Shown here: positions 9,906 through 30,511 of the stretch, piece after piece
Numbering within the stretch: position 1 is the stretch's first letter
Layout of the letters: each line of letters starts with the position of its first letter
Source: a virus
IMG/VR virus record: IMGVR_UViG_3300047380_000845
Coordinates: 1-32,014 of that record
Reading direction: 5' to 3' (one strand)
Length of the DNA stretch: 32,014 bases
Translations under genes and position numbers: made by a program
The notes under the pieces: model-generated
Seen by the model: the letters and a program-made list of their open reading frames with translations, nothing else
Told to the model about the DNA's origin: nothing
Database searches by the model: none

Positions 9906-10399
9906 TACTTTAATACCTTTGCTAATTCTTGAACTGTCATAACTTTGATATTACCTTCCTGATCGACAGTACCAAACTTTAGAGTTTTTCCATCAAGTCT
10001 TGGCTTAATGCTATACGCAGATAGTCCACCTTTTTTACCTGGAATATTATGGACTGTTCCATCTTTATCCATTCTAGGCTTTTCTCTATGGCTCGGGTTA
10101 TCGTTACCAAGTGCTTCAGTAACATCTTCCTTAACAACCTTTGAACCATTTTTATTAATGAAATCGAATGATTTATTTTGAGCACCACGGTCACCCCCTC
10201 TAGCATATCCATCTAGGTATGCTTGAGCATGAGCTTCGGCGTCTTTAGGTGATTTCCAACCAACTGATCCAAGGTACATCACTTTACCAGTTTTTTTGTT
10301 TTTAATTTCAGCCCGATGGCCTCCGAATTTAGACTTTTCTGACCCTACAACATATTCTTCTGGGTCAAGTCTCTCTCTTAATTCTTTAAACTTTTTCAT
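9905..10399 (-). CDS. Unknown basic protein with capsid-targeting-like N-terminus (164 aa)
   Basis: Begins MKKFKELRE-R, close to the MxxFKx(L)xE pattern of its neighbours. The body is Gly/Lys-rich with beta segments (HRAEIKNKKTGKVMYLGSVGW) and a helix (DAEAHAQAYLDGYARGG), a disordered central linker (about 95-120), and the C-terminal GKKGGLSAYSIKPRLDGKTLKF. The GGLSA element echoes KGGLSAKI in the 126-aa protein two genes downstream, hinting at a shared module. The start has GGAG seven bases upstream and an ATGA overlap with the kinase gene. No function recognised. Confidence 0.6.
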   Translation of the reverse strand: MKKFKELRERLDPEEYVVGSEKSKFGGHRAEIKNKKTGKVMYLGSVGWKSPKDAEAHAQAYLDGYARGGDRGAQNKSFDFINKNGSKVVKEDVTEALGNDNPSHREKPRMDKDGTVHNIPGKKGGLSAYSIKPRLDGKTLKFGTVDQEGNIKVMTVQELAKVLK

Positions 10400-11082
10400 T
10401 TTTTACTCCGCGCTAAGGCTTTCATGTTTTCGATCCACTGCTTAGCAATGAAATTCTTAATTGGTTTTTTACTAAATTTTTGTATATCTTTATATGCCAT
10501 GTTCATAACTTTATCATTAGTTTTGTTGTTATCGACTATCATAAAGTTATTACTTCCAAATAAATTCTGGAATGCACCAATATTTCTTTGTACCGCATTC
10601 CACATTTTACTTACGTCTTCGACCGGTAATTTCCGTGGTCTTTTTTCATTTCTATCTAATGCTACTTCTTCTGACGTATTAACAAATATCATATAACAAT
10701 CATATCCAGATTCTCTTAACACCTTTACCTGTTTTTTAATTTTAGAAAGGTCTTTACCAGTACCATCTAGGACTAATCCTAAACGACCTTGTAGGTATAT
10801 GCGCATACGAGCCGCAGTAATTTTCTTAGACGCTTGTCTTATTTCTTGGCCTTTCGGGCTATATATCGTCTCAGGGTCAAGTTCAAGATCGGCCTGTTTC
10901 ATTTTTAATTCAAATATGTCGTCCGAATTAATCACCTTAAATCCGGCAGAAGATGGAATTGCGTTACCTTGAACGTAGGACTTACCCGAACCTGGTCCGC
11001 CAGCCATAAAAATGGCTTTAAAGATTGCAGGATCATTAACGCCTTCATTCAACCACTCTTTAAAATTATCCACCGAACTCAT
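10396..11082 (-). CDS. P-loop kinase, zeta-toxin/polynucleotide-kinase-like
   Basis: Walker A GGPGSGKS at residues 28-35, INSDDIFE (about 51-58, the acceptor-binding Asp pair of PNK/zeta-type kinases), a LVLDGTGKD strand (about 98-106) and a lid-like RNEKRPRKLP (about 138-147) place it among P-loop kinases. The substrate could be a nucleic-acid 5' end, a nucleotide or a sugar. ATG at 11082 lies too close to its GGGG; GTG at 11073 would give MDNFKEWLNE-G, exactly the ten-residue capsid-targeting pattern, and may be the true start. The enzyme may therefore be carried in the virion. It overlaps the upstream 79-aa gene. Confidence 0.78.
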   Translation of the reverse strand: MSSVDNFKEWLNEGVNDPAIFKAIFMAGGPGSGKSYVQGNAIPSSAGFKVINSDDIFELKMKQADLELDPETIYSPKGQEIRQASKKITAARMRIYLQGRLGLVLDGTGKDLSKIKKQVKVLRESGYDCYMIFVNTSEEVALDRNEKRPRKLPVEDVSKMWNAVQRNIGAFQNLFGSNNFMIVDNNKTNDKVMNMAYKDIQKFSKKPIKNFIAKQWIENMKALARSKK

Positions 11083-17480: not shown

Positions 17481-18158
17481 TTATAAGGTACTTAATTGAG
17501 TGGTAGGAAAGATACTTAGGATAACTTCAGCGCATGCTCTGGCTATATCCATGTGTTCTTGTTGAGTACCATTGCCCATACGTAATTGACAATAGTGAAT
17601 CCATGACCGAAGAGTACCATTCACATACATGCGGCTCATGGTATTACCCTCTGGAAGAACGGCTCTTGCTTGTTCCTTCGCGATACCATTCTGAATTGCC
17701 CAGGAATATGCTTCCTTGGCTGCATCAATAACATGGCGTTGTTTGTCATACCACGCTCGCGTAACTTTTTGGTATTCGTCTTCGTCCATTGGAAGACTGT
17801 TTTGACGATTCTTGGGATCTTGCATTCTAGGTTCTCTCACCTCGAAGCTTAAATCCGTAGTTGGGTTTGCGTATCGTTGACTAAACTCTTGGAATGAGAA
17901 TGACCTATGGCGTAGAAACTGCCGGGCAATATCCCGAGTAGTTTCTACTTCCATACATACTGACACCATTTCAAGTGGTGACCAGTGTTGGTGTTTAACC
18001 AAATAGTTAACCAATTTCTCAGCGGTCTCAGAATTATTCTGATTGCTGGGATTAGATACCCTAGCACAATATGCAACAATTTGCAAAAGGTCGTTCTCTG
18101 CAATTTCCGATTCTGATTCTGGGGGAAGTTGTGAATATGATACTAGATTAATTTTCAA
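17481..18158 (-). CDS. thyX: FAD-dependent thymidylate synthase
   Basis: Makes dTMP from dUMP with methylene-tetrahydrofolate, FAD and NADPH, releasing tetrahydrofolate. The signature RHRSFSFQEFSQRY (residues 83-96) matches RHRxxSxxxxSxRY exactly, and GNTMSRMYVNGTLRSWIHYCQLRMGNGTQQEHM carries the C-terminal substrate-binding region. The length (225 aa) is normal. The start is TTG at 18158 with AAGG eight bases upstream, four bases after the preceding stop. Unlike ThyA of T4 it needs no dihydrofolate reductase, which fits the phage serine hydroxymethyltransferase at 22.2-23.4 kb. Confidence 0.96.
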   Translation of the reverse strand: MKINLVSYSQLPPESESEIAENDLLQIVAYCARVSNPSNQNNSETAEKLVNYLVKHQHWSPLEMVSVCMEVETTRDIARQFLRHRSFSFQEFSQRYANPTTDLSFEVREPRMQDPKNRQNSLPMDEDEYQKVTRAWYDKQRHVIDAAKEAYSWAIQNGIAKEQARAVLPEGNTMSRMYVNGTLRSWIHYCQLRMGNGTQQEHMDIARACAEVILSIFPTTQLSTL

Positions 18159-19744: not shown

Positions 19745-20051
19745 TGCATGTCTCCTGCTTGTCAAGTTGTGTCACAATAATATAACTCAGTACGTCACCT
19801 AGGTGGTTTTGAAACACCGCATCATTTTCTAACTGGTCCGGTTGATATCTACCTGAGTCTTTAATGTTATAATTAAATTTTAGGTTTGCATTTTCATCAA
19901 GCGATCCTTCTTCTGGCATCTTAATAGAGACAGCACCATATATGACAATCACTCCGTCATACTCGCCACCCTTCAGTCTTACACCATAGAAGTCTTCACT
20001 TAAATTTTCTACTAAACTAAAATCATCTTCTGATATGCTATTATAACTCAT
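19725..20051 (-). CDS. Small protein in T4 gene 40 position (108 aa)
   Basis: Lies between uvsX and the helicase, exactly where T4 has gene 40 (a head-vertex assembly factor). ATG at 20051 (AAGG upstream) starts inside the uvsX end. The product begins MSYNSISEDDFSLVENLSEDFYGVRLKGGEYDGVIVIYGAVSIK, a beta-rich acidic domain, then a helical C-terminus (NHLGDVLSYIIVTQLDKQ). Similarity to gp40 is judged by place and size rather than clear motifs, so the identity is tentative. Confidence 0.62.
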   Translation of the reverse strand: MSYNSISEDDFSLVENLSEDFYGVRLKGGEYDGVIVIYGAVSIKMPEEGSLDENANLKFNYNIKDSGRYQPDQLENDAVFQNHLGDVLSYIIVTQLDKQETCIGRPQE

Positions 20052-21120
20052 TTTGTGCGCCTTGTACACCGTTATTTGCAGTAATTTCAGGGTCAAAGTC
20101 AATTATTGATTTGTGCCCGATTTGGTATTGTTTAATTAGGAAGTCTTTGAACTTAGGGTTATCCAGGATAGGTTTCCAGAACTCATCAGTACGAGTTTGT
20201 TTTTCTCTTACTTTAGGTTCCATCACTTCACCAGTATCTGGGTCTACTGCATTATACCAACCATTCGATGGCTTGACAACATAACCTCCTGCAAGAGCCA
20301 CATCAAGCAAACCAGAGTTACGCTCAACGCCACCGTCCCAAGAAACCGAAACAGGGATTTTGCTTTTCTCTTTAACGAATCTAGACTTCTCAACATTAAT
20401 AATAAAATCATAACCTGTAACTTCTGTTCCTGTCTTGTTTTGCCTACGGCCTAAAATCCAAATGTTATCGGCCGAGTAGTAAATACCTGTACCACCTGAT
20501 ACGATAGCTTTAGGGAATAAACCAATCTCTTGGTAGGTATGGTTTACTGCCAGCATGGGAATGTTCTTCATAGTAAGATACGGAGTACACATTCTGAATA
20601 AACCTTTGAGTGCTTTTGCACGAGTCATATCTGCGACTGACTTCTCATTCAATGCATCTTCAAGTTCTTTCTTTGATGCAAGGTTACCAATAGAATCAAT
20701 CACAATAATAACTTTATCTTTACGGTCAATCTCTTCTAATTGACTAATCATATCAAATTTGAGTTGTTCGACATTGGCAATAGGAGTATGTAGTACCCGT
20801 GACGTGTCAATACCAAAAGCCTCAAAGTATGATTGAGGTGAACCAAATTCAGAATCATAGAATAACATCACTGCATCTTTATGTTTTTTCATATATGCGC
20901 CAGCCATGAGCAAAGCAAATGATGTTTTAAAATGTTTGGATGGGCCAGCAAGTACAGTCAACCCAGAAGATAATCCTCCGTCAGGGTCTCCAGATAGAGC
21001 AACATTCACCATGGGTACATCGGTTGCAACCATATCTTTTTCGCCAAAGTAGACACTGTCCGCTAGTGAATCGGTGCCTTTAATTTTGGAATTCTTTTTT
21101 AATTTATCCATTACAGACAT
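20041..21120 (-). CDS. uvsX: UvsX recombinase (T4 RecA homologue)
   Basis: Binds single-stranded DNA and drives strand exchange and recombination-dependent replication. Walker A GPSKHFKT (59-66), FYDSEFG (Walker-like strand), VIDSIGNLASKKELEDALNEKSVADMTRAKALKGLFR and NHTYQEIGLFPKAIVSGGTG follow T4 UvsX nearly residue by residue. VEKSRFVKEKSKIPV and GYVVKPSNGWY continue the match. At 359 aa it is slightly shorter than T4 (about 391), having lost part of the acidic C-terminus. It has its own promoter (21153-21181), and GGAG precedes the ATG. Confidence 0.97.
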   Translation of the reverse strand: MSVMDKLKKNSKIKGTDSLADSVYFGEKDMVATDVPMVNVALSGDPDGGLSSGLTVLAGPSKHFKTSFALLMAGAYMKKHKDAVMLFYDSEFGSPQSYFEAFGIDTSRVLHTPIANVEQLKFDMISQLEEIDRKDKVIIVIDSIGNLASKKELEDALNEKSVADMTRAKALKGLFRMCTPYLTMKNIPMLAVNHTYQEIGLFPKAIVSGGTGIYYSADNIWILGRRQNKTGTEVTGYDFIINVEKSRFVKEKSKIPVSVSWDGGVERNSGLLDVALAGGYVVKPSNGWYNAVDPDTGEVMEPKVREKQTRTDEFWKPILDNPKFKDFLIKQYQIGHKSIIDFDPEITANNGVQGAQNEL

Positions 21121-21190: not shown

Positions 21191-22216
21191 TTACATAAAT
21201 GCATCTAGTTGTATACCAGAATCTCTCGGTTTGCCTTGACGTTGTTCCCACCCAGATACCCAACCAGAATTGTTGGTGATATCTTCAGCGACATGGTCAA
21301 ATGTATTATCATTACGTGGGACATAGTTTTGACCGAATCTTACGAAGTCACAAAGAACATCTTCATTATCTCGGGGTGCGCCTCCCATACGCTCAAGAAG
21401 AATATCCATAAAGTCATCAGTAGAATATCCACGACTTAATACTTTCATGGCTCGGATAGCATTGTTACCAAAGTATCCATGGGACATATGGTCTACTAAG
21501 TCTTTGTGATAGTCACCTAGGTCATATGAAAATGCGGCGTATACGAAATTGAATCTTTTGTGCCCTTGTTCTAGGTTATATGTATTCAAATAATCTACGA
21601 TTTCTTTATGGCCTTTCTTACCGCCAATATGAAGCCATTCAATAAATCTATCGATGAGCGGTTCAAGTTCATTTACCATAAAGTCAAGACATGAAACACC
21701 TTTACGTGGGGATGGGGGTTGGTTACCAATAGATGTAAACAGTGGTTTACCGTTTGTTTTAGTATATGTCATATGGTCTTGCATATCTTTTATATCACGT
21801 AGGTTACCCCAATACTGTATTGCATTATTTCTATAACCATGGTCACGTGTAAACGATGCACCAGAACCAGTAATACGATGACACAGATAAACGTAGAACC
21901 AAGTCTTTAAATCCCAACCCGTAGTATCATAACCCTCAATTAATTTACGACGAGCCTCATCATGATGATGAGCTTTTGGAGTATCTTTCATGAACTTTAG
22001 GTCTTGTATGGCATTAGAAAAGCCTGCCGCATCTCTACTAAAACAATCGTAAATATCAATTGATTGCATAAGAGGGTCATTCACTGCCTTATTTGCTTCG
22101 GCACTATCGTATGCATATTTACCCCAGTTACAACTATTCTGTAACCATCTTGCACGAGGATAGTAGTAGTGTGATAATACCTCTAGGGCTTCTTCATTTA
22201 ACCATTGTTTGCTCAT
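21191..22216 (-). CDS. Helical protein, possible amino-acid:DNA transferase-type hypermodification enzyme (341 aa)
   Basis: An all-helical, His/Tyr/Asp-rich protein. Segment 102-131 ([21 protein letters not shown]...DHGYRNN) recalls the conserved core of the phage transferases that attach amino groups to activated pyrimidines in DNA (aGPT-Pplase/ADDT group). A second conserved-looking stretch is [37 protein letters not shown] (about 223-259). The start overlaps the serine hydroxymethyltransferase stop by four bases (ATGA), so the two are translated together. In T4 this site, next to uvsX, encodes the hydroxymethylcytosine glucosyltransferase. The family match is from memory of motif shape and is tentative. 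Confidence 0.6.
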
Positions 22217-23358
22217 CTTAAAATATCCGATATAATTTGTGCTAAGTTTTTAAACCACTTAAGGTCTTTGAATCGAGTTGTCTCTGCGGCGGTACCCAAT
22301 CGGATACCAGAAGTTTCAACGAATGAACGCGGGTCATTTGGTACACCATTTTTATTCACAGTAATACCATTCTCCTCAAGTAAATCAGCGGCTTGTCTGC
22401 CTGAGTATTTACTATCGCTCAGATCTAACAAAATAATATGTGAATCTGTTCCGCCGGTTAATACTTTGAATCCGTTTTTAGTGAAAACCTCCGCCATAGC
22501 TTGGGCATTATCTACTACGTTCCTGGCATATACCATAAATCCTTGAGTATCAGCCTCTACAAATGACTGGGCTTTGGCCGCAATGATATTCATCAGAGGT
22601 CCGCCTTGTGTGCCGGGAAAAATTGCACTGTTAATCTTACGAGTATAGTCAGGATTGTTCCATAAGATAATACCACCACGAGGTCCTCTTAGTGTCTTAT
22701 GAGTGGTTGAAGTAACAACATCCGCAAATGGAACTGGGTTTACATATACTCCACCCGCGATTAAACCAGAATAGTGAGCCATATCTACAAGTAATAATGC
22801 GCCTACTTCATCAGCGATATCTCTAAACTCAGCCCAATCGATTTGTCTTGGATAAGCACTCGCACCTGCAACTATCATTTTTGGTTTAAGCTCATGAGCC
22901 TTTTTGCGAATATCATCGTAATCTAAGAAACCATCTTCGTTAACTCCATACGTATGTGAATCAAACCAAGAGCCTGATACATTCACACTCGCACCATGTG
23001 ATAAGTGTCCGCCACTTGCAAGGTCCATACCTAGAATTGTATCGCCAGGTTTTAGAAACGCTTTGAATACTGCAAGGTTCGCATTAGCTCCAGAGTGTGG
23101 TTGTACATTTGCATACTCACAACCATATATTTTTTTCAATAGGTCAATGGCAAGAGTTTCAATCTCATCCATATGTTCACACCCATTATAATATCGTTTG
23201 CCTGGATATCCTTCCGCATATTTGTTTGTGAATACTGAACCACATAACTCCATAACTGCTTCAGAAGCAAAATTCTCTGATGCAATCAGTTCAATTGTGT
23301 TCTCTTGTCTATGAGTTTCGTCTTTTAGTATTTGTCTAATCTTCTGTATTGAGTTCAT
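22213..23358 (-). CDS. glyA: Serine hydroxymethyltransferase
   Basis: PLP enzyme converting serine and tetrahydrofolate to glycine and methylene-tetrahydrofolate. Nearly all signatures are present: IELIASENF with Glu28, [15 protein letters not shown] (48-61), [24 protein letters not shown] with Asp192 and His195, [13 protein letters not shown] with the PLP Lys221, FPGTQGGP, and SGIRLGT with Arg353. At 381 aa it lacks about 35 residues of the cellular C-terminus. All catalytic residues are intact, so it is probably active. It overlaps the PLP-lyase-like gene upstream by 23 bases. The likely role is one-carbon supply to gp42 and ThyX; a direct role on a modified base is an alternative. Confidence 0.93.
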
Positions 23359-24265
23359 TTTTTAACCAGTCCCTATATGAATTTGTGTTATCGTAAATTG
23401 TTTCGTCTTGAGGTGCAACTTCATTTCCAACATTCCAGAATAATACGTCTCTGTCTGGATTATCTTTTTTAAACTGCACCGCAGGAGCCCAACCCTTTGC
23501 ATCGTATTCAGCGATACATGGGAATGGTGGCATGTCTTTTTCTTTAAGTCCTTGTGTAAATGCAAGTGGATGACTAATAATTCTATCATGTCCAACTTCG
23601 CCTGCTTTCATATTACGCGCAACAGCGACACCATGGAATGTTGCGTTAGGCCATGCAATTTGTAATGACCTATGTAATACGCCAGTGGATAATACAGTCC
23701 ATACATCTTGAGGCTCAGGAATTTGAGATGCTACTTTTACAAAGCCAGCGGTCACCATTTCGTGTTTAAGACCTAATGGAATAAAGTATGCATTATCTCT
23801 TTCGTCTGCCCATTTCTTTGCATGTGCATTGAGGTTTGGCATTGCGGCAATACGTAAGAAGTCATATTCGGCTCCTCTTTCTATACATGCCGCTTGATGT
23901 GGAGATATCCTTTTAGATGAAGGCATCCACAACATTACCTTTTTATTATGTCGTTTTGCTACATCTAATATTGATACGCCTGCAAGTCCAAATCGTGGTT
24001 GGCAATAAACCAAGGTATCGATGCTCTCTGGCAGCGAACTGATAAGACAATCTCCACCTCGTACTTTAGAACCAACAAGCAAATCGTCACGTAATACTCT
24101 GACTCCTTCGTGTACCTTAACAACCGGTGCTGGATTAGGGTCAGTCCAATCTTTTGCGAGGTTTAGATAATACTCCTTCGCATCATGTCGGTCATAAACC
24201 CCTTCCATTAGCAAGTTGCTAACATCTTTATTTGTGTAATCTATTACGTGTTTATTATGAGCCAA
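23336..24265 (-). CDS. Fold-type II PLP-dependent enzyme, ACC-deaminase/desulfhydrase-like (309 aa)
   Basis: [15 protein letters not shown] (57-71) aligns with the Lys-containing GGNK-TRK element of ACC deaminase and D-cysteine desulfhydrase; Lys67 is the presumed Schiff-base lysine. [41 protein letters not shown] matches the following strand-helix pattern, and [17 protein letters not shown] matches the phosphate loop. It is shorter than typical members (about 330-340). The start is TTG at 24265 with GGGGAG ten bases upstream, overlapping the upstream stop. Sited with SHMT between 42 and uvsX, it may act on an amino-acid group attached to a base. The substrate is unknown. Confidence 0.72.
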
Positions 24266-25232
24266 AGACAGTTACTCCCCAATCGTTACTTCTATAAAAA
24301 GGCGGAGCGATATGAAATGATGAACCATGCTCCATAAATTCTTTTGCGTATTTCTCAGGGTCCATCGTATACCATTCCGTTGGTGGTTGGATAACTTTTC
24401 CGCCTGACTGTTTATATAGCTCATCAATAAATCTGTTTGTGAGGTCGTAACGTTCTTGCCATGACCCAAAGAATGGTTCTTTCTTATAGAATCCAGATTT
24501 AGGTATACGTCTTCCCTCAAATTCAATAGGAACTGGTGTTGCATAATATACATCACAATCATCAGTAAATTCTAATGACTGTCCTTGTGTGACATACTCT
24601 TTAATTAGATTTTCTAGCACAAAGTCTTTATGCCTTAACAGATGATGACGAATATCAATAGAACCAAAGCACAACGTGATGTTACCACGGATTGGTTTAC
24701 CTCTAAACATTGTACGAAGACCTTGTCTTAAAGCACCGTGCAGTGTCTTACCATCGTTACGTAGAACACAATCATTGTCTCGTGCAAATGCAATAGTATG
24801 TGAATCACCTAATGTAATTCCATCCATTTGTAAATCTTCTTGCTTTAGTGATTCTGTTTTTTTGAATCGACACGTGAGACCCTTACACCATTCTTCGGTA
24901 ATACCTTCGTATGTAGATGCAGCGCCGATTCTTTTTCGAAACTGTTCTCCCCATTCTGGCATATCATGGTCAAGAGATATTACGTTTTTAGATGCGGCGA
25001 TACGGTTAACTCTATCGTATACTGATTTGTCCGCACCCCCAAATAAATTAAGAGTACCGCCAAAGTTAGCACCATGATCGATATACACCGTGTCATAGTC
25101 CATTACTTTAGGAGTACATTTATAGTTTATATCTGAGCCTAGTTGCCTATGCCAGGTTTGGGTCCACCCATGAACATGGGATTTAGCATTAACTGGTATA
25201 TTACTTATCGGATTCGTAATCACTGAATTCAT
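24255..25232 (-). CDS. SGNH-hydrolase-like protein (325 aa)
   Basis: GITLGDSHT (138-146, Ser144 as block I nucleophile), ITLCFGSIDIRHHLLR (185-200, block III with Asp193 replacing the usual Asn) and HGSSFHIAP (302-310, His307) suggest an SGNH/GDSL esterase-like or acyltransferase core. The N-terminal 130 residues are distinctive (YIDHGANFGGTLNLFGGADKS, ISLDHDMPEWGEQFRKRIG) and unrecognised. ATG at 25232 is chosen: upstream sequence belongs to the dCMP deaminase, and GGA lies about ten bases before it. It could add, remove or sense an acyl or sugar decoration in the cassette; this is inference. Confidence 0.62.
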   Translation of the reverse strand: MNSVITNPISNIPVNAKSHVHGWTQTWHRQLGSDINYKCTPKVMDYDTVYIDHGANFGGTLNLFGGADKSVYDRVNRIAASKNVISLDHDMPEWGEQFRKRIGAASTYEGITEEWCKGLTCRFKKTESLKQEDLQMDGITLGDSHTIAFARDNDCVLRNDGKTLHGALRQGLRTMFRGKPIRGNITLCFGSIDIRHHLLRHKDFVLENLIKEYVTQGQSLEFTDDCDVYYATPVPIEFEGRRIPKSGFYKKEPFFGSWQERYDLTNRFIDELYKQSGGKVIQPPTEWYTMDPEKYAKEFMEHGSSFHIAPPFYRSNDWGVTVFGS

Positions 25233-25659
25233 ATTGTATTCCAACTTCTTCAAACATTGATCGGGATAGCTCCCAAGATTCTTTCCATCTGTCCATGCCA
25301 CCTTCCACATCAGCCATTACAACTCGCTTGACGCCAGTCTGTATAATACCCTTAGCACATTCTGAGCATACTGGTAATCCAACGACGTATAGTGTTGCCC
25401 CATCTAATGAAACACCAGTGTACGTAGCGTTATATATTACATTCATTTCGGCATGTACTACATACTTATATTTCTCATCACGAGTAAATAATCTACTGAC
25501 ACTATCACTAATGCCTCGAGGAAAACCATTGTATCCTTGTGATAACACCTGGCCTTTATCCGAAACTGCAACCGCACCAATCTGTTTAGATGGGTCTTTA
25601 GACCATGAGGCAATTTCCCTTGCCATAGACAAGAATCTATTGTCCCATTTATTAGTCAT
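25201..25659 (-). CDS. cd: Deoxycytidylate (dCMP) deaminase
   Basis: Converts dCMP to dUMP, feeding thymidylate synthesis by ThyX. Zinc-binding HAE (69-71) and PVCSEC (96-101, Cys98 and Cys101) are intact, with the SKDPSKQIGAV substrate segment at 20-30. The 152-aa length is typical for bacterial dCMP deaminases and a little shorter than T4 Cd (193). It competes with gp42 for dCMP, so the two set the balance between dTMP and hydroxymethyl-dCMP. The start lies inside the end of the small membrane-protein gene upstream. Confidence 0.94.
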   Translation of the reverse strand: MTNKWDNRFLSMAREIASWSKDPSKQIGAVAVSDKGQVLSQGYNGFPRGISDSVSRLFTRDEKYKYVVHAEMNVIYNATYTGVSLDGATLYVVGLPVCSECAKGIIQTGVKRVVMADVEGGMDRWKESWELSRSMFEEVGIQYEFSDYESDK

Positions 25660-25819
25660 CTAATTTATTTCCGTAATAGTCATGCGTTCCGTTTCGGTAT
25701 TGTCGTTTTCTTTCTTGAGATTCTAGTGTTGCAACCCATGAACCAGCGATTGTAAATCCTACAAAGAAGATGATTAAAAACCAACTCAGTATAATTTCTA
25801 GTATTGACATGTCTTCCAT
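25652..25819 (-). CDS. Small membrane protein (55 aa)
   Basis: A short frame from ATG 25819 to TAA 25652 fills the space between gp42 and dCMP deaminase. It starts one base after the gp42 stop region and overlaps the deaminase start. Sequence MEDMSILEIILSWFLIIFFV then GFTIAGSWVATLESQERKRQY: one strong membrane helix (about 6-31) and a basic, polar tail. In T4 the neighbouring gene imm also encodes a small membrane protein that blocks superinfection; similarity here is only of type and place. Confidence 0.65.
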   Translation of the reverse strand: MEDMSILEIILSWFLIIFFVGFTIAGSWVATLESQERKRQYRNGTHDYYGNKLDD

Positions 25820-25820
25820 A

Positions 25821-26474
25821 TTATTCTACCAAATTAAAATGTTTTTCATACACATGAAGATTCTGAACTTGCCAGTGAATATCACCTACGTTATAGCCTA
25901 GGTCATTGGCGAGTACGGAAAGTATATATGACTGCCAGGCATAATCATTCTTATAACCGAATACAACATCGTTAGACCTCATTTGAACTACACAATGTAG
26001 CGCGGAATCACGAATGTAGTAAGTAACAGAGTTTGTACAAATAAAATCATTCTTGCCATTCTCGTTATATTCAGTCCATATAGATGGACGAGTATAAATC
26101 ATTGAACCGCGTCTTGAATCAGGATTGTTTGTGAGTTCACACACAACTTGGTCATATTGATTATATAGCTTTTCTGACCAAATGAGATGGCCATAGTTTG
26201 AATTGATTTCACCATACATGTTTGCAGTCATTTGCCATGCGGTAGGTGGTGCTTTTTCACCACCAAAAATATCATTAATATTAGTAGACTCACTTGAATA
26301 CCAATCTATTTCAGCATCGACATACTTAGTATTAACTGTACCGAAGATGGATTCTTCGTCTGCAATAAACGATGCTCCAAGAAGTTCGATGGTTTTACCT
26401 CCGGTACGGTCTGTACAGAAGTTTTCATCTTCTAGTTCATTAATAAAATGTTCGCGAATATCTGATACATTCAT
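25821..26474 (-). CDS. 42: Deoxycytidylate 5-hydroxymethyltransferase, T4 gp42-like
   Basis: Thymidylate-synthase-fold enzyme adding a hydroxymethyl group to dCMP using methylene-tetrahydrofolate. It follows T4 gp42 closely: TGGKTIELLGASFIADE, GEINSNYGHLIWSE, NPDSRRGSMIYTRPS, FICTNSVTYYIRD (Cys146 nucleophile), MRSNDVVFGYKNDYAWQ and LHVY. Asp177 in KNDYAW corresponds to T4 Asp179, the residue that sets dCMP rather than dUMP preference. At 217 aa it lacks about 25 C-terminal residues of T4 gp42 (246). AAGGAG precedes the ATG, which shares a base with the upstream stop. It predicts hydroxymethylcytosine in the phage DNA. Confidence 0.93.
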   Translation of the reverse strand: MNVSDIREHFINELEDENFCTDRTGGKTIELLGASFIADEESIFGTVNTKYVDAEIDWYSSESTNINDIFGGEKAPPTAWQMTANMYGEINSNYGHLIWSEKLYNQYDQVVCELTNNPDSRRGSMIYTRPSIWTEYNENGKNDFICTNSVTYYIRDSALHCVVQMRSNDVVFGYKNDYAWQSYILSVLANDLGYNVGDIHWQVQNLHVYEKHFNLVE

Positions 26475-28026: not shown

Positions 28027-28367
28027 TTTTTTAGCCATTGTATTTCATGTCCTGTTAGTGTTTCAAATTCATTAATTAAGTCGTCGTATGAAGTCCGTTC
28101 TAAAGTTCGGTATTCATGTAGGAATTCAGATAAGATATTCCAAGATTCGGTTTCCATAGGTGCGAGACCATACTCGTGCTTTCCGCCATAGAATTCTGTT
28201 TCATCTAATCCGTATATATCAATACGACCACATGAATAGGACTTATATCTTTTATATTCTTTTGGAGTTGTGTTGACTAATATTGTTTCCATTTCATATG
28301 GAATATTATTGTCTTCATACCACTTCGTTACGATAGGACCCATCCAGTTAGTACTATAGGTTATCAT
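28023..28367 (-). CDS. Unknown protein (114 aa)
   Basis: ATG at 28367 overlaps the oxygenase stop as ATGA and has GAAGAG eight bases upstream; the longer frame to 28400 is less likely. MITYSTNWMGPIVTKWYEDNNIPYEMETILVNTT... has the start of a small alpha/beta domain, then a polar middle and a helical C-terminus (WNILSEFLHEYRTLERTSYDDLINEFETLTG). No family is recognised. It is tightly coupled to the oxygenase. Confidence 0.62.
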   Translation of the reverse strand: MITYSTNWMGPIVTKWYEDNNIPYEMETILVNTTPKEYKRYKSYSCGRIDIYGLDETEFYGGKHEYGLAPMETESWNILSEFLHEYRTLERTSYDDLINEFETLTGHEIQWLKK

Positions 28368-28891
28368 ACAAAATTCTCTTCCGATGGTTTTGTGGTCCAT
28401 ATGTTTGTTGCAAATACTTTACGATCAAATTTTGTTGTGGCTGTTACCTGATGTGGCAATCCGCTGGGGAATATAATTAAACGATTCGGAATGGGTGCAA
28501 TACGTTCGGCAACTCCCCACTCATCCTTCAATTCAAGGTATCCACCTTCTGGTTGACTATCATGAGCATAAAGAACCGAACCCATTTTAGGAACACGAAT
28601 CTCTCCGGTTTCTCTCCATAGGTATTCATCTTTATCATAGTGCAAAGGTAAATCCGGAAATGCGTCAGGCCTCATAATGTTTGTCCAGTGTTCTATTCCT
28701 TCGAACGAACCTAACTCGACGTATCCTCTAGTGTCAACATGTGTCCATATATGTGTAGCGATTTCATCCCAAATGGTTCGTGTGGTTTGGTCCACACTTA
28801 ACCACTCATAAGTCTTCGGCGTATACCAAAGCCCTTCATAAGTAAATTGGTCCCATTGAGAGTCGTTAAGAAAATCGTCAATAATAATCAT
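28364..28891 (-). CDS. 2-oxoglutarate/Fe(II)-dependent oxygenase (prolyl-hydroxylase-like)
   Basis: The iron triad is visible as HYD (His84, Asp86) and His147 in FPSGLPHQV, with Arg157 (RKVFATNIW) placed to bind 2-oxoglutarate; GGYLEL at 117-122 is the usual intervening strand. The 175-aa length equals that of phage 2OG-Fe(II) oxygenases common in marine T4-like genomes. The substrate could be protein, a nucleotide or a modified base. The start has GGA upstream and an ATGA overlap with the membrane-protein gene. Confidence 0.84.
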   Translation of the reverse strand: MIIIDDFLNDSQWDQFTYEGLWYTPKTYEWLSVDQTTRTIWDEIATHIWTHVDTRGYVELGSFEGIEHWTNIMRPDAFPDLPLHYDKDEYLWRETGEIRVPKMGSVLYAHDSQPEGGYLELKDEWGVAERIAPIPNRLIIFPSGLPHQVTATTKFDRKVFATNIWTTKPSEENFV

Positions 28892-29214: not shown

Positions 29215-30144
29215 TTACATATTATTCTTAAAAATAAACTCTAGCGCACGCTCGGCTTCTTTACGAACTTGGCGTGATTTATACCAACCGCCTGTTGCAT
29301 TATCGAGGTCACGTACTAAGTACTCAATCTCTTTTGCGGTAATTGGATACCCACTTGACACGGCCGAACCGGCAATAGAAACCATAATTTGATACATTTT
29401 ATAATACCAACCAGAACCACTAATAGTTTTGTATTCTTCGACCTGTCTCTTATTGACAAATGGACAATCATTATAACCGGTCCAAGAATAATTTGTATTA
29501 GTTAGTTGGTTTTTACGATGTTCAACTAATCCATTTCTGATAGCTTCAGGCAGCCTATCGAAAAACGATTCACTTTGTACCACATATCTATGCTCACTCA
29601 TCACTTCAGTTGGATTCATAATCTCGCCATCATGTGTGAATATAAAGTTGTACGCATCTTTGTACTTCGAAGGTACGTAGTACATACGTGAAAGGTCTTT
29701 AGTTTGAATATCGGCAATGTCACCAATTTCTCTATTCAGTGCAAACCAGAAGTGTTTGATTTCTTCTCGTTCTACACTCCGCGTCAAGGGGAATACCAAC
29801 CTGAACTTCGGTTTTTCTTTTGTAGAAGAAGCTGTTGAATAACACACATATTTGTACTTAGCATACTTTTTGTGAATGTCATCAATAGACCCTTCATAAT
29901 CGTCAACATCGACAATACCAAAACCAGCCCAAGAAACGACATTGTCATTTGCTCGAGTGGTATTTGATAAGTACGTCGCAGGCGATATTAGAGGAGCATC
30001 TTTTTTAACCTTATATTGATTAGACTTTGCCAATTTATACAAGACTGATTCAAGCTCATCAAACGAATTATAATCCATTCGCTTGTGAGTCTTGTTATCA
30101 TAGATACTATCAAATATCGTTAAGCTTACCGAGGTTGTCGACAT
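29215..30144 (-). CDS. PrimPol-like (archaeo-eukaryotic primase superfamily) protein (309 aa)
   Basis: IVDVDDYEG (78-85) gives the DxD metal site, YSTASSTKEKPKFRLVFPLTR (102-122) matches the following conserved block of plasmid/phage PrimPol domains, and DLSRMYYVPSK (150-160) supplies the third Asp and the SR motif. The C-terminal half (about 200-309) is helical and may be a priming or helicase-contact domain. The start at 30144 overlaps the MazG-like gene by 35 bases; the N-terminal strand VSLTIFDSIYDNKTHKR looks like part of the fold, so a shorter start (30078) is less likely. It may prime DNA or aid lesion bypass. Confidence 0.72.
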   Translation of the reverse strand: MSTTSVSLTIFDSIYDNKTHKRMDYNSFDELESVLYKLAKSNQYKVKKDAPLISPATYLSNTTRANDNVVSWAGFGIVDVDDYEGSIDDIHKKYAKYKYVCYSTASSTKEKPKFRLVFPLTRSVEREEIKHFWFALNREIGDIADIQTKDLSRMYYVPSKYKDAYNFIFTHDGEIMNPTEVMSEHRYVVQSESFFDRLPEAIRNGLVEHRKNQLTNTNYSWTGYNDCPFVNKRQVEEYKTISGSGWYYKMYQIMVSIAGSAVSSGYPITAKEIEYLVRDLDNATGGWYKSRQVRKEAERALEFIFKNNM

Positions 30145-30511
30145 GTGTTGGTGCTTCCCAGCCTTCCGGCTTAATTAGATCTGGTAGTCCGAGAGGATTA
30201 GGACGTGACTCTTTCACACCAACCTCTTTAGACATATTTGCTTTATGAACACGATCCCATGCTGTATGAGCATCTACGCCAAACGCGTCTAGTGTACCAA
30301 TCGCAACGACACACAGATCGATAAGGCCATCAACGATTTCATCCGCATCTTTCAAGCCAGTTGCTTTAAACGTTTCTTCGTATTCTTCTTTCAAGAACGC
30401 TACTCGAAAATGCAGAAGCTGTTCTAGTTTGTCAGGGTTATTCTTAACCCATTCTTGCACACCATATTTAGTATGCATTTCAGCGATATCCGCTACCCAG
30501 TTAGTACTCAT
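30110..30511 (-). CDS. MazG-like nucleotide pyrophosphohydrolase
   Basis: HFRVAFLKEEYEET (34-47) with Glu42, Glu43 and Glu46, and DEIVDGLIDLCVVA (57-70) with Glu58 and Asp61, form the EExxE...ExxD metal site of all-alpha NTP pyrophosphatases. FGVDAHTAWDRVHKANMSK is typical of the phage HisE/MazG-like group. It would hydrolyse a nucleoside triphosphate to the monophosphate. In an organism making hydroxymethylcytosine DNA, a dCTP-removing enzyme is needed (T4 gp56); this is one candidate, as is the gene at 26.5 kb. The start overlaps the Sm-like gene stop by one base. Confidence 0.8.
   Translation of the reverse strand: MSTNWVADIAEMHTKYGVQEWVKNNPDKLEQLLHFRVAFLKEEYEETFKATGLKDADEIVDGLIDLCVVAIGTLDAFGVDAHTAWDRVHKANMSKEVGVKESRPNPLGLPDLIKPEGWEAPTHVDNLGKLNDI

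Follow-up and report, generated by a model that had tools for sequence, protein, structure and literature searches.

The gp42 gene and the nucleotide-pool genes

The window analysed here is a whole IMG/VR record of 32 kb (32,014 nucleotides) and is itself a fragment of a phage genome. The features that enter the argument are listed below in order of position; X, Y and Z are working labels.

17481-18158, minus strand: ThyX, flavin-dependent thymidylate synthase (PF02511, E = 3e-42), also a consumer of methylene-THF
20041-21120, minus strand: uvsX recombinase (PF21134; phrog_97), the border of the slot described below
21191-22216, minus strand: Z, a predicted DNA-glycosylase-fold protein resembling the amino-acid:DNA transferase/5-hmdU kinase helical domain
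22213-23358, minus strand: serine hydroxymethyltransferase (SHMT), 381 residues (PF00464, E = 2e-150)
23336-24265, minus strand: Y, a PALP-like (fold-type II) PLP protein with an invariant Lys67 in GSKVRGGD
24255-25232, minus strand: X, with a BGT-like N-terminal domain and an SGNH-fold C-terminal domain (listed ORF to 25310)
25201-25659, minus strand: dCMP deaminase, 152 residues (PF00383, E = 1e-20; phrog_174, E = 3e-43), giving dUMP from dCMP
25652-25819, minus strand: 55-residue ORF (from the ORF list) that separates gp42 from the deaminase and shows a single hydrophobic stretch on visual inspection
25821-26474, minus strand: gp42-like dCMP hydroxymethylase, 217 residues, with catalytic Cys146 and dCMP-specifying Asp177
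30110-30511, minus strand: PRA-PH/MazG-type nucleotide pyrophosphohydrolase (PF01503, E = 6e-10)

The ORF at 25821-26474 is a dCMP hydroxymethylase, as predicted from homology. Its product aligns end to end with T4 gp42 in PDB entry 1b49 (query residues 1-217 with residues 6-226, E = 6e-73 with phmmer), matches Pfam PF00303 (E = 5e-22) and is 55% identical to T4 gp42 (NC_000866) over 214 positions. Homology to the thymidylate-synthase fold spans the whole protein, and the closest phage matches (53-55%) are from T4-like Salmonella, Klebsiella, Enterobacter, Shigella, Escherichia and Acinetobacter phages. The alignment places Cys146 at the catalytic Cys148 of T4 and Asp177 at T4 Asp179, with an Asp rather than an Asn at the site that specifies the pyrimidine, which confirms the two residues named in a preliminary description of this DNA. 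T4 gp42 extends about 20 residues past the C-terminus of the window protein. The preliminary description had put this shortening at about 25 residues and had suggested an effect on oligomerisation or partner binding; the protein is indeed shorter, but the same end, four residues past the motif LHVYxxHF, is found in 140 of 168 relatives.

A scan of IMG/VR with the window gp42 returned at least 599 candidate stretches, each encoding a relative, and the earlier suggestion that the gene is uncommon in marine T4-like phages is thereby refuted. The accompanying statement that KVP40-like phages and cyanophages are generally without gp42 holds for cultured phages, among which gene 42 is listed only for T-even/JS98-type phages, RB69, CC31, Acinetobacter phages and the Aeromonas phages 44RR, 31 and 25 (Petrov et al., 2010, PMC2993671, Table 4). 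The Cys is kept in all 168 complete relatives and the Asp in 167, the exception (L271) being a distant homologue.

The dCMP deaminase adjoins gp42 in nearly all relatives. It is present in the window as previously described, although 'directly downstream' is only nearly right because the 55-residue ORF separates the two genes. A homologue of the PRA-PH/MazG-type pyrophosphohydrolase occurs in nine of ten long related records (46-153 kb, two of them of 142 and 153 kb). T4 gp56 itself matches PF01503 weakly (E = 0.019), and the pyrophosphohydrolase may be a candidate replacement for the gp56 dCTPase. The search for gp1 and gp56 that had been proposed as a check gave no match to the gp1-type hm-dCMP kinase (PF21448) in the ten long records, possibly all fragments, and none to T4 gp56 in a BLAST search of the same records run without a positive control. 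Because the window is a 32 kb fragment, both genes may lie elsewhere in the genome of this phage, and the prediction has come through the refuting condition of the preliminary description only in part. Experiments on environmental phages have independently linked contigs with modified cytosine to thymidylate-synthase homologues that carry Asp177 and lie next to genes for dCMP deaminase and PRA-PH proteins (PMC8670742).

A genome containing 5-hydroxymethylcytosine (hmC), as foreseen in the preliminary description, is the best prediction for the window phage, the cytosine of which is very probably altered as in T4. The prediction is supported by the orthology of gp42, its active-site residues, the dCMP deaminase and the T4-like synteny (43 ... 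42 ... uvsX, 41), and also by the presence of hmC glycosyltransferases in the equivalent slot of relatives. hmC itself is known biology.

Two further genes were seen in the window. A small 2OG-Fe(II) oxygenase-like protein (28364-28891; PF13640, E = 5e-7) is encoded upstream of gp42 and is kept in the close relatives L002 and L058. A SegE-type GIY-YIG homing endonuclease (444-875; PF19835, E = 3e-38) adjoins nrdB; the label 'NAD synthetase' of its best PHROG family is apparently a mislabel.

The slot between gp42 and uvsX

The T4 gene order is uvsX, segA, beta-gt, 42. In the window, the stretch from gp42 and the deaminase to uvsX holds X, Y, SHMT and Z, genes that had been missed by the preliminary description, at the place of the T4 beta-glucosyltransferase. 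We mapped this slot in the 80 gp42 loci nearest to the window (the best 80 of at least 599) and in the window itself, and found interchangeable cassettes. One type is X-Y-Z, in several orders and sometimes with an additional protein, c21. A second carries glycosyltransferases, namely an AGT-family protein (PF11440, E = 3e-24), a protein like the beta-glucosyl-HMC-alpha-glucosyltransferase of phrog_842 (E = 1e-41) or c14, a putative glycosyltransferase by our own reading and free of Pfam hits; alongside these lie sugar genes for UDP-galactopyranose mutase (GLF), an epimerase and UDP-glucose dehydrogenase. The third type consists of an inositol-phosphate synthase (MIPS), an HAD-like protein, c19 and X, where c19 matches the helical domain of 5-hmdU DNA kinases (HMUDK_hel, PF18723) at E = 1.2e-10, above the curated cut-off.

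Among 49 complete gp42-uvsX slots, a glycosyltransferase was found in 24, Z in 16, MIPS with the HMUDK_hel protein in eight and another content in one, with zero overlap. X was present in all 24 complete slots that have either Z or c19, and absent from the other 25. A larger set of 157 Z loci was assembled from separate scans keyed on Z and on Y, so that only the linkage of gp42 and X in it is independent of the query. Where more than 6 kb of upstream sequence was available, gp42 was found in 79 of 79 of these loci, X in 75 and Y in 76, and none of the 157 loci carries any of the three glycosyltransferase types. The uvsX tree implies at least 12 switches between cassette types, and well supported branches force at least four changes for X-Y-Z; these slot and linkage counts were taken over related contigs, so that the events are not independent. 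The uvsX backbones nearest to that of the window carry all three types (X-Y-Z in L058, MIPS in L003 and a glycosyltransferase in L008). Such repeated swapping of three cassette types in one place argues for one shared job, the decoration of hmC. The comparison thus supports the prediction that the stretch between gp42 and uvsX is an hmC-decoration slot, in which X-Y-Z, tied to gp42, takes the place of the glycosyltransferases.

Several other contents of the slots and cassettes were noted. The MIPS cassette was seen in eight loci (inositol-1-phosphate synthase-like protein, PF01658, E = 5e-8, HAD-like protein, c19 and X), usually also with a C5-methyltransferase-like protein, and its content predicts an inositol-decorated hmC. 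In another eight slots c14 occurs with UDP-galactopyranose mutase and an NAD-dependent epimerase, which suggests galactofuranosyl-hmC. The C5-cytosine methyltransferase-like protein c4 (L013:5947-7140 and relatives; PF00145, E = 6e-14) occurs in 23 complete slots, all of which lack Z, and was never seen alongside it. Many Z cassettes include c21 (L025:6810-7793; about 328 residues) between their Z and Y genes; c21 has a match in 44 of the 157 loci and no family match. Fourteen Z cassettes also include UDP-glucose dehydrogenase-like genes, some of them with epimerase-like genes, a hint of a further sugar acid step.

The SHMT gene behaves differently from X, Y and Z. The protein has the 12-residue PLP-lysine motif of its family and likely supplies methylene-THF and glycine. 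Besides the window it was found in two of the 157 Z loci, at the equivalent position in L161 and beside gp42 in L052, and SHMTs close to that of the window (73-80%) are frequent in viral contigs (L231-L309) without gp42 in the flanks examined. Phage SHMT resembles a mobile metabolic gene, and its rarity in Z loci together with its frequency in unrelated viral contigs led us to reject it as a core gene of the cassette.

These observations bear on the possibility that the window comes from an ordinary T4-like hmC phage, with hmC either undecorated or glycosylated by genes outside the fragment, and with X, Y, SHMT and Z as metabolic passengers. The window is indeed a fragment and SHMT a roaming viral gene; moreover, Aeromonas 44RR-type phages have gene 42 and alpha-gt is listed only for the T-even phages (PMC2993671), so the decoration that accompanies gene 42 need not be T4-like. 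However, passengers would not be expected to occupy the beta-glucosyltransferase place, to exclude glycosyltransferases from it and to swap with decoration cassettes, nor to be found always with gp42 where this is testable. The BGT-like domain of X and the fold of Z, which is that of DNA base transferases, also speak against passengers. We regard this possibility as unlikely.

Predicted folds of X, Y and Z

Neither X nor Z could be identified directly from sequence, as neither gave a significant match to Pfam or to PDB profiles. The relatives of X begin at codon 27 of the listed ORF (MNSVITNPIS...). The structure of X predicted with AF2 (pLDDT 88) has a C-terminal half with the SGNH/GDSL fold (Z-score of 12.4 in VIA, with GDSL/SGNH proteins or designed scaffolds as the top rows). 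The residues expected of that superfamily are there: Gly168, Asp169 and Ser170 of the GDS block and the C-terminal His333 are invariant in 53 of 53 members.

The N-terminal domain of X resembles the acceptor domain of the T4 beta-glucosyltransferase (BGT). Eight of 53 members match Pfam PF09198 (best E = 0.0014), and a BGT profile built here gave 69 hits among 126 X proteins in hmmsearch (best E = 1.2e-5); among the controls, Z and SHMT gave no hits and Y and gp42 gave none below E = 2. Profile-profile comparison of X with BGT by hhalign gave E = 2.3e-5. The matches seen are confined to the N-terminal domain (BGT residues 1-117) and do not extend to the UDP-glucose-binding C-terminal domain of BGT, the place of which is taken in X by the SGNH fold. 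An NxFGG motif is common to X and the BGT N-terminal domain, and Asp116 of X, present in 46 of 53 members, aligns with BGT Asp100, which we take to be the catalytic base.

Y resembles a fold-type II PLP enzyme. The PALP family (PF00291) is matched by ten of 12 members (best E = 3.4e-5), the window copy itself reaching only E = 0.1, below the cut-off. The window copy matches phrog_7093, 'threonine dehydratase', at E = 7e-40, and alignment with CysK/CysM/IlvA/DcyD by hhalign (E = 0.012) places Lys67 at the position of the PLP lysine. In Erythrobacter and Microcystis phages, Y homologues carry the name 'DNA modification methylase'; we read this as a name taken from a fused or neighbouring domain and not as a sign that Y is a methylase.

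The predicted structure of Z (AF2, pLDDT 89) was compared with BFVD and with solved structures. In BFVD it matches three proteins of uncultured phages with TM-scores of 0.74-0.77, one of them named 'Amino acid:DNA transferase domain-containing' (E = 2.9e-14), and more weakly the SP10 5-hmdU DNA kinase (E = 0.007) and other HMUDK_hel or aGPT-pyrophosphorylase proteins; Z thus shares the fold of the amino-acid:DNA transferases and the HMUDK_hel domain. Against the PDB, Foldseek gave no match at E <= 0.001. The AGOG 8-oxoguanine DNA glycosylases are the top solved structures (Z-score of 8.3) by VIA only, which is a second look at Foldseek's own list and leaves room for folds outside it.

This ranking is one basis for another explanation, in which Z would be a glycosylase of the DNA-repair type and X would be an esterase. 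Rather than decorating phage DNA, the two would guard or edit it, or would attack DNA without hmC from the host or from rivals. SGNH proteins are, moreover, usually hydrolases. On the other hand, the closest predicted folds for Z are phage proteins like the amino-acid:DNA transferases, and a repair function leaves the mutual exclusion with hmC glycosyltransferases unexplained. Of the explanations considered we find this one the least probable, and would be surprised if it proved correct.

The assignment of Z rests on its predicted fold because the sequence models fail. ADDT (PF18724) finds nothing up to E = 10 in either the window or ten relatives, HMUDK_hel (PF18723) has no match among 18 Z members or in the Z-bearing records, and hhalign detects no sequence similarity between Z and c19. 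We therefore call Z transferase-like in its working and do not assign it to either family. X accompanies an HMUDK_hel-type partner in three forms: with Z (by fold), with c19 and in an Aeromonas phage fusion described below.

The thymidine hypermodification route opens with a DNA kinase that phosphorylates the hydroxymethyl group (PMC6449724). The Z records were not found to share a kinase of the 5-hmdU type, their AAA_33 matches being few and mostly weak, and the known kinase-then-transfer route is therefore incomplete in them. A Zeta-toxin/AAA_33-like P-loop protein in the window (10396-11082) was tried as an hmC DNA kinase and rejected, as it is present in two of six Z/Y records and lies far from the slot.

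The modified base might also be thymine, with X, Y and Z acting via 5-hydroxymethyl-dU in the manner of M6, ViI and phiW-14, and with gp42 either serving a separate cytosine pathway or accepting dUMP. The fold relatives of Z do act in thymidine hypermodification (PMC6449724). Nevertheless, the only hydroxymethylase with which Z is linked has the Asp that specifies dCMP at all 108 loci, dTMP is made by ThyX, no 5-hmdU DNA kinase shared by the Z records was found, and the partners with which the cassette exchanges in the slot are hmC glycosyltransferases. We consider modification of thymine improbable.

A proposed pathway and its relation to known systems

The reading that we favour, with a probability of about 0.7, is that hm-dCMP made by gp42 replaces cytosine and that X-Y-Z, in the beta-glucosyltransferase slot, adds a non-glucosyl substituent. 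X-Y-Z is probably an alternative hmC hypermodification, that is, a variant of hmC chemistry. In such a pathway gp42 would make 5-hydroxymethyl-dCMP, the dCMP deaminase and the pyrophosphohydrolase would shape the dCMP/dCTP pool, and hmC would be incorporated into DNA in place of cytosine. X would then bind hmC in DNA via its BGT-like domain, and its SGNH domain would work on the hydroxymethyl oxygen, perhaps acylating and so activating it; because no kinase is common to the Z records, X may activate by such another route. Y would prepare an amino-acid-derived donor, and Z, as a glycosylase-fold transferase, would install the donor group on the flipped base. In the window phage, SHMT would add glycine and methylene-THF, the co-substrate of gp42 and ThyX. 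The likely benefit of the decoration is protection from restriction and CRISPR systems.

That the attached group is an amino acid is a guess, and the leading one because of the fold relatives of Z, the nature of Y and, in the window phage, SHMT. The fullest form of the proposal is that throughout a widespread marine T4-like clade X, a chimera that joins the acceptor domain of BGT to an acyltransferase-like SGNH domain, would activate hmC and Z would attach a group derived from an amino acid and made by Y, while the sister cassette of inositol-phosphate synthase, HAD-like protein, HMUDK_hel protein and X would attach inositol. We put this detailed scheme forward tentatively, as possible rather than probable. 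No report of hmC combined with SGNH or PLP chemistry was found in the literature searched, which did not extend to Iyer et al. (2013).

If the proposal is correct, a cytosine hypermodification that has gone undescribed is common in ocean phages, and brings with it new DNA chemistry and new enzymes, among them a chimera of a T4 beta-glucosyltransferase domain and an esterase fold, in a modular decoration slot with contents that can be read straight from sequence. It would be relevant to phage evasion of restriction and CRISPR systems and to the possible difficulty of sequencing or digesting some virion DNA.

Part of the proposal can already be put to the test in the cultured Aeromonas phages 44RR2.8t and 31. 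They are T4-like, have gene 42 (PMC2993671) and SHMT, and encode X fused to a c19-like part of HMUDK_hel type. In Aeromonas phage 44RR2.8t.2 the fusion is a hypothetical protein of 795 residues (APU00705.1; L310:10782-13166), the first half of which is X and the second half related to c19 and weakly HMUDK_hel-like; it is preceded by a gene with the annotation 'sodium-dependent galactose transporter'. They differ from the window in that the X fusion and, in the close relative SW69-9, SHMT lie among other genes, and no match to Z or Y was found in them.

Among systems of known chemistry, the environmental phages with 5-carbamoyloxymethyl-dC found by MetaGPA (PMC8670742) have in common with the window a dCMP hydroxymethylase with Asp177, dCMP deaminase and PRA-PH, next to a decorating transferase that in their case is a carbamoyltransferase and not X-Y-Z. 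Phage enzymes that place an amino acid on cytosine are known from Synechococcus phage S-B43, in which CmoX/CmoY give 5-carboxymethyl-C-glycine amide by a different chemistry (PMC12783734) and so offer a precedent. This route differs in relying on a homologue of C5-methyltransferases and on an amide ligase that is ATP-dependent, and it is described without gp42.

Thymidine hypermodification also uses a thymidylate-synthase-family hydroxymethylase and a PLP-type enzyme, to which gp42 and the PALP-like Y correspond in the window. The systems of M6, ViI, phiW-14 and SP10, which combine a 5-hmdU DNA kinase with an alkylamine or amino-acid transferase, share with the window a glycosylase-fold transferase, in the window the putative one Z. 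They differ in that the predicted base in the window is cytosine by the residue identity of gp42, no common P-loop DNA kinase was found in the Z records, X with its BGT-like and SGNH domains is there instead, and Z falls outside the ADDT and HMUDK_hel models.

The T4 hmC system differs from that of the window in the BGT/AGT genes, which the window slot lacks, in the C-terminal half of X, which is SGNH-like and not a UDP-glucose domain, and in gp1, which was not found in ten long records of relatives. What the two share is a homologous gp42, a dCMP deaminase, a decoration gene, in the window a predicted one, between 42 and uvsX, and the BGT-like N-terminal domain of X.
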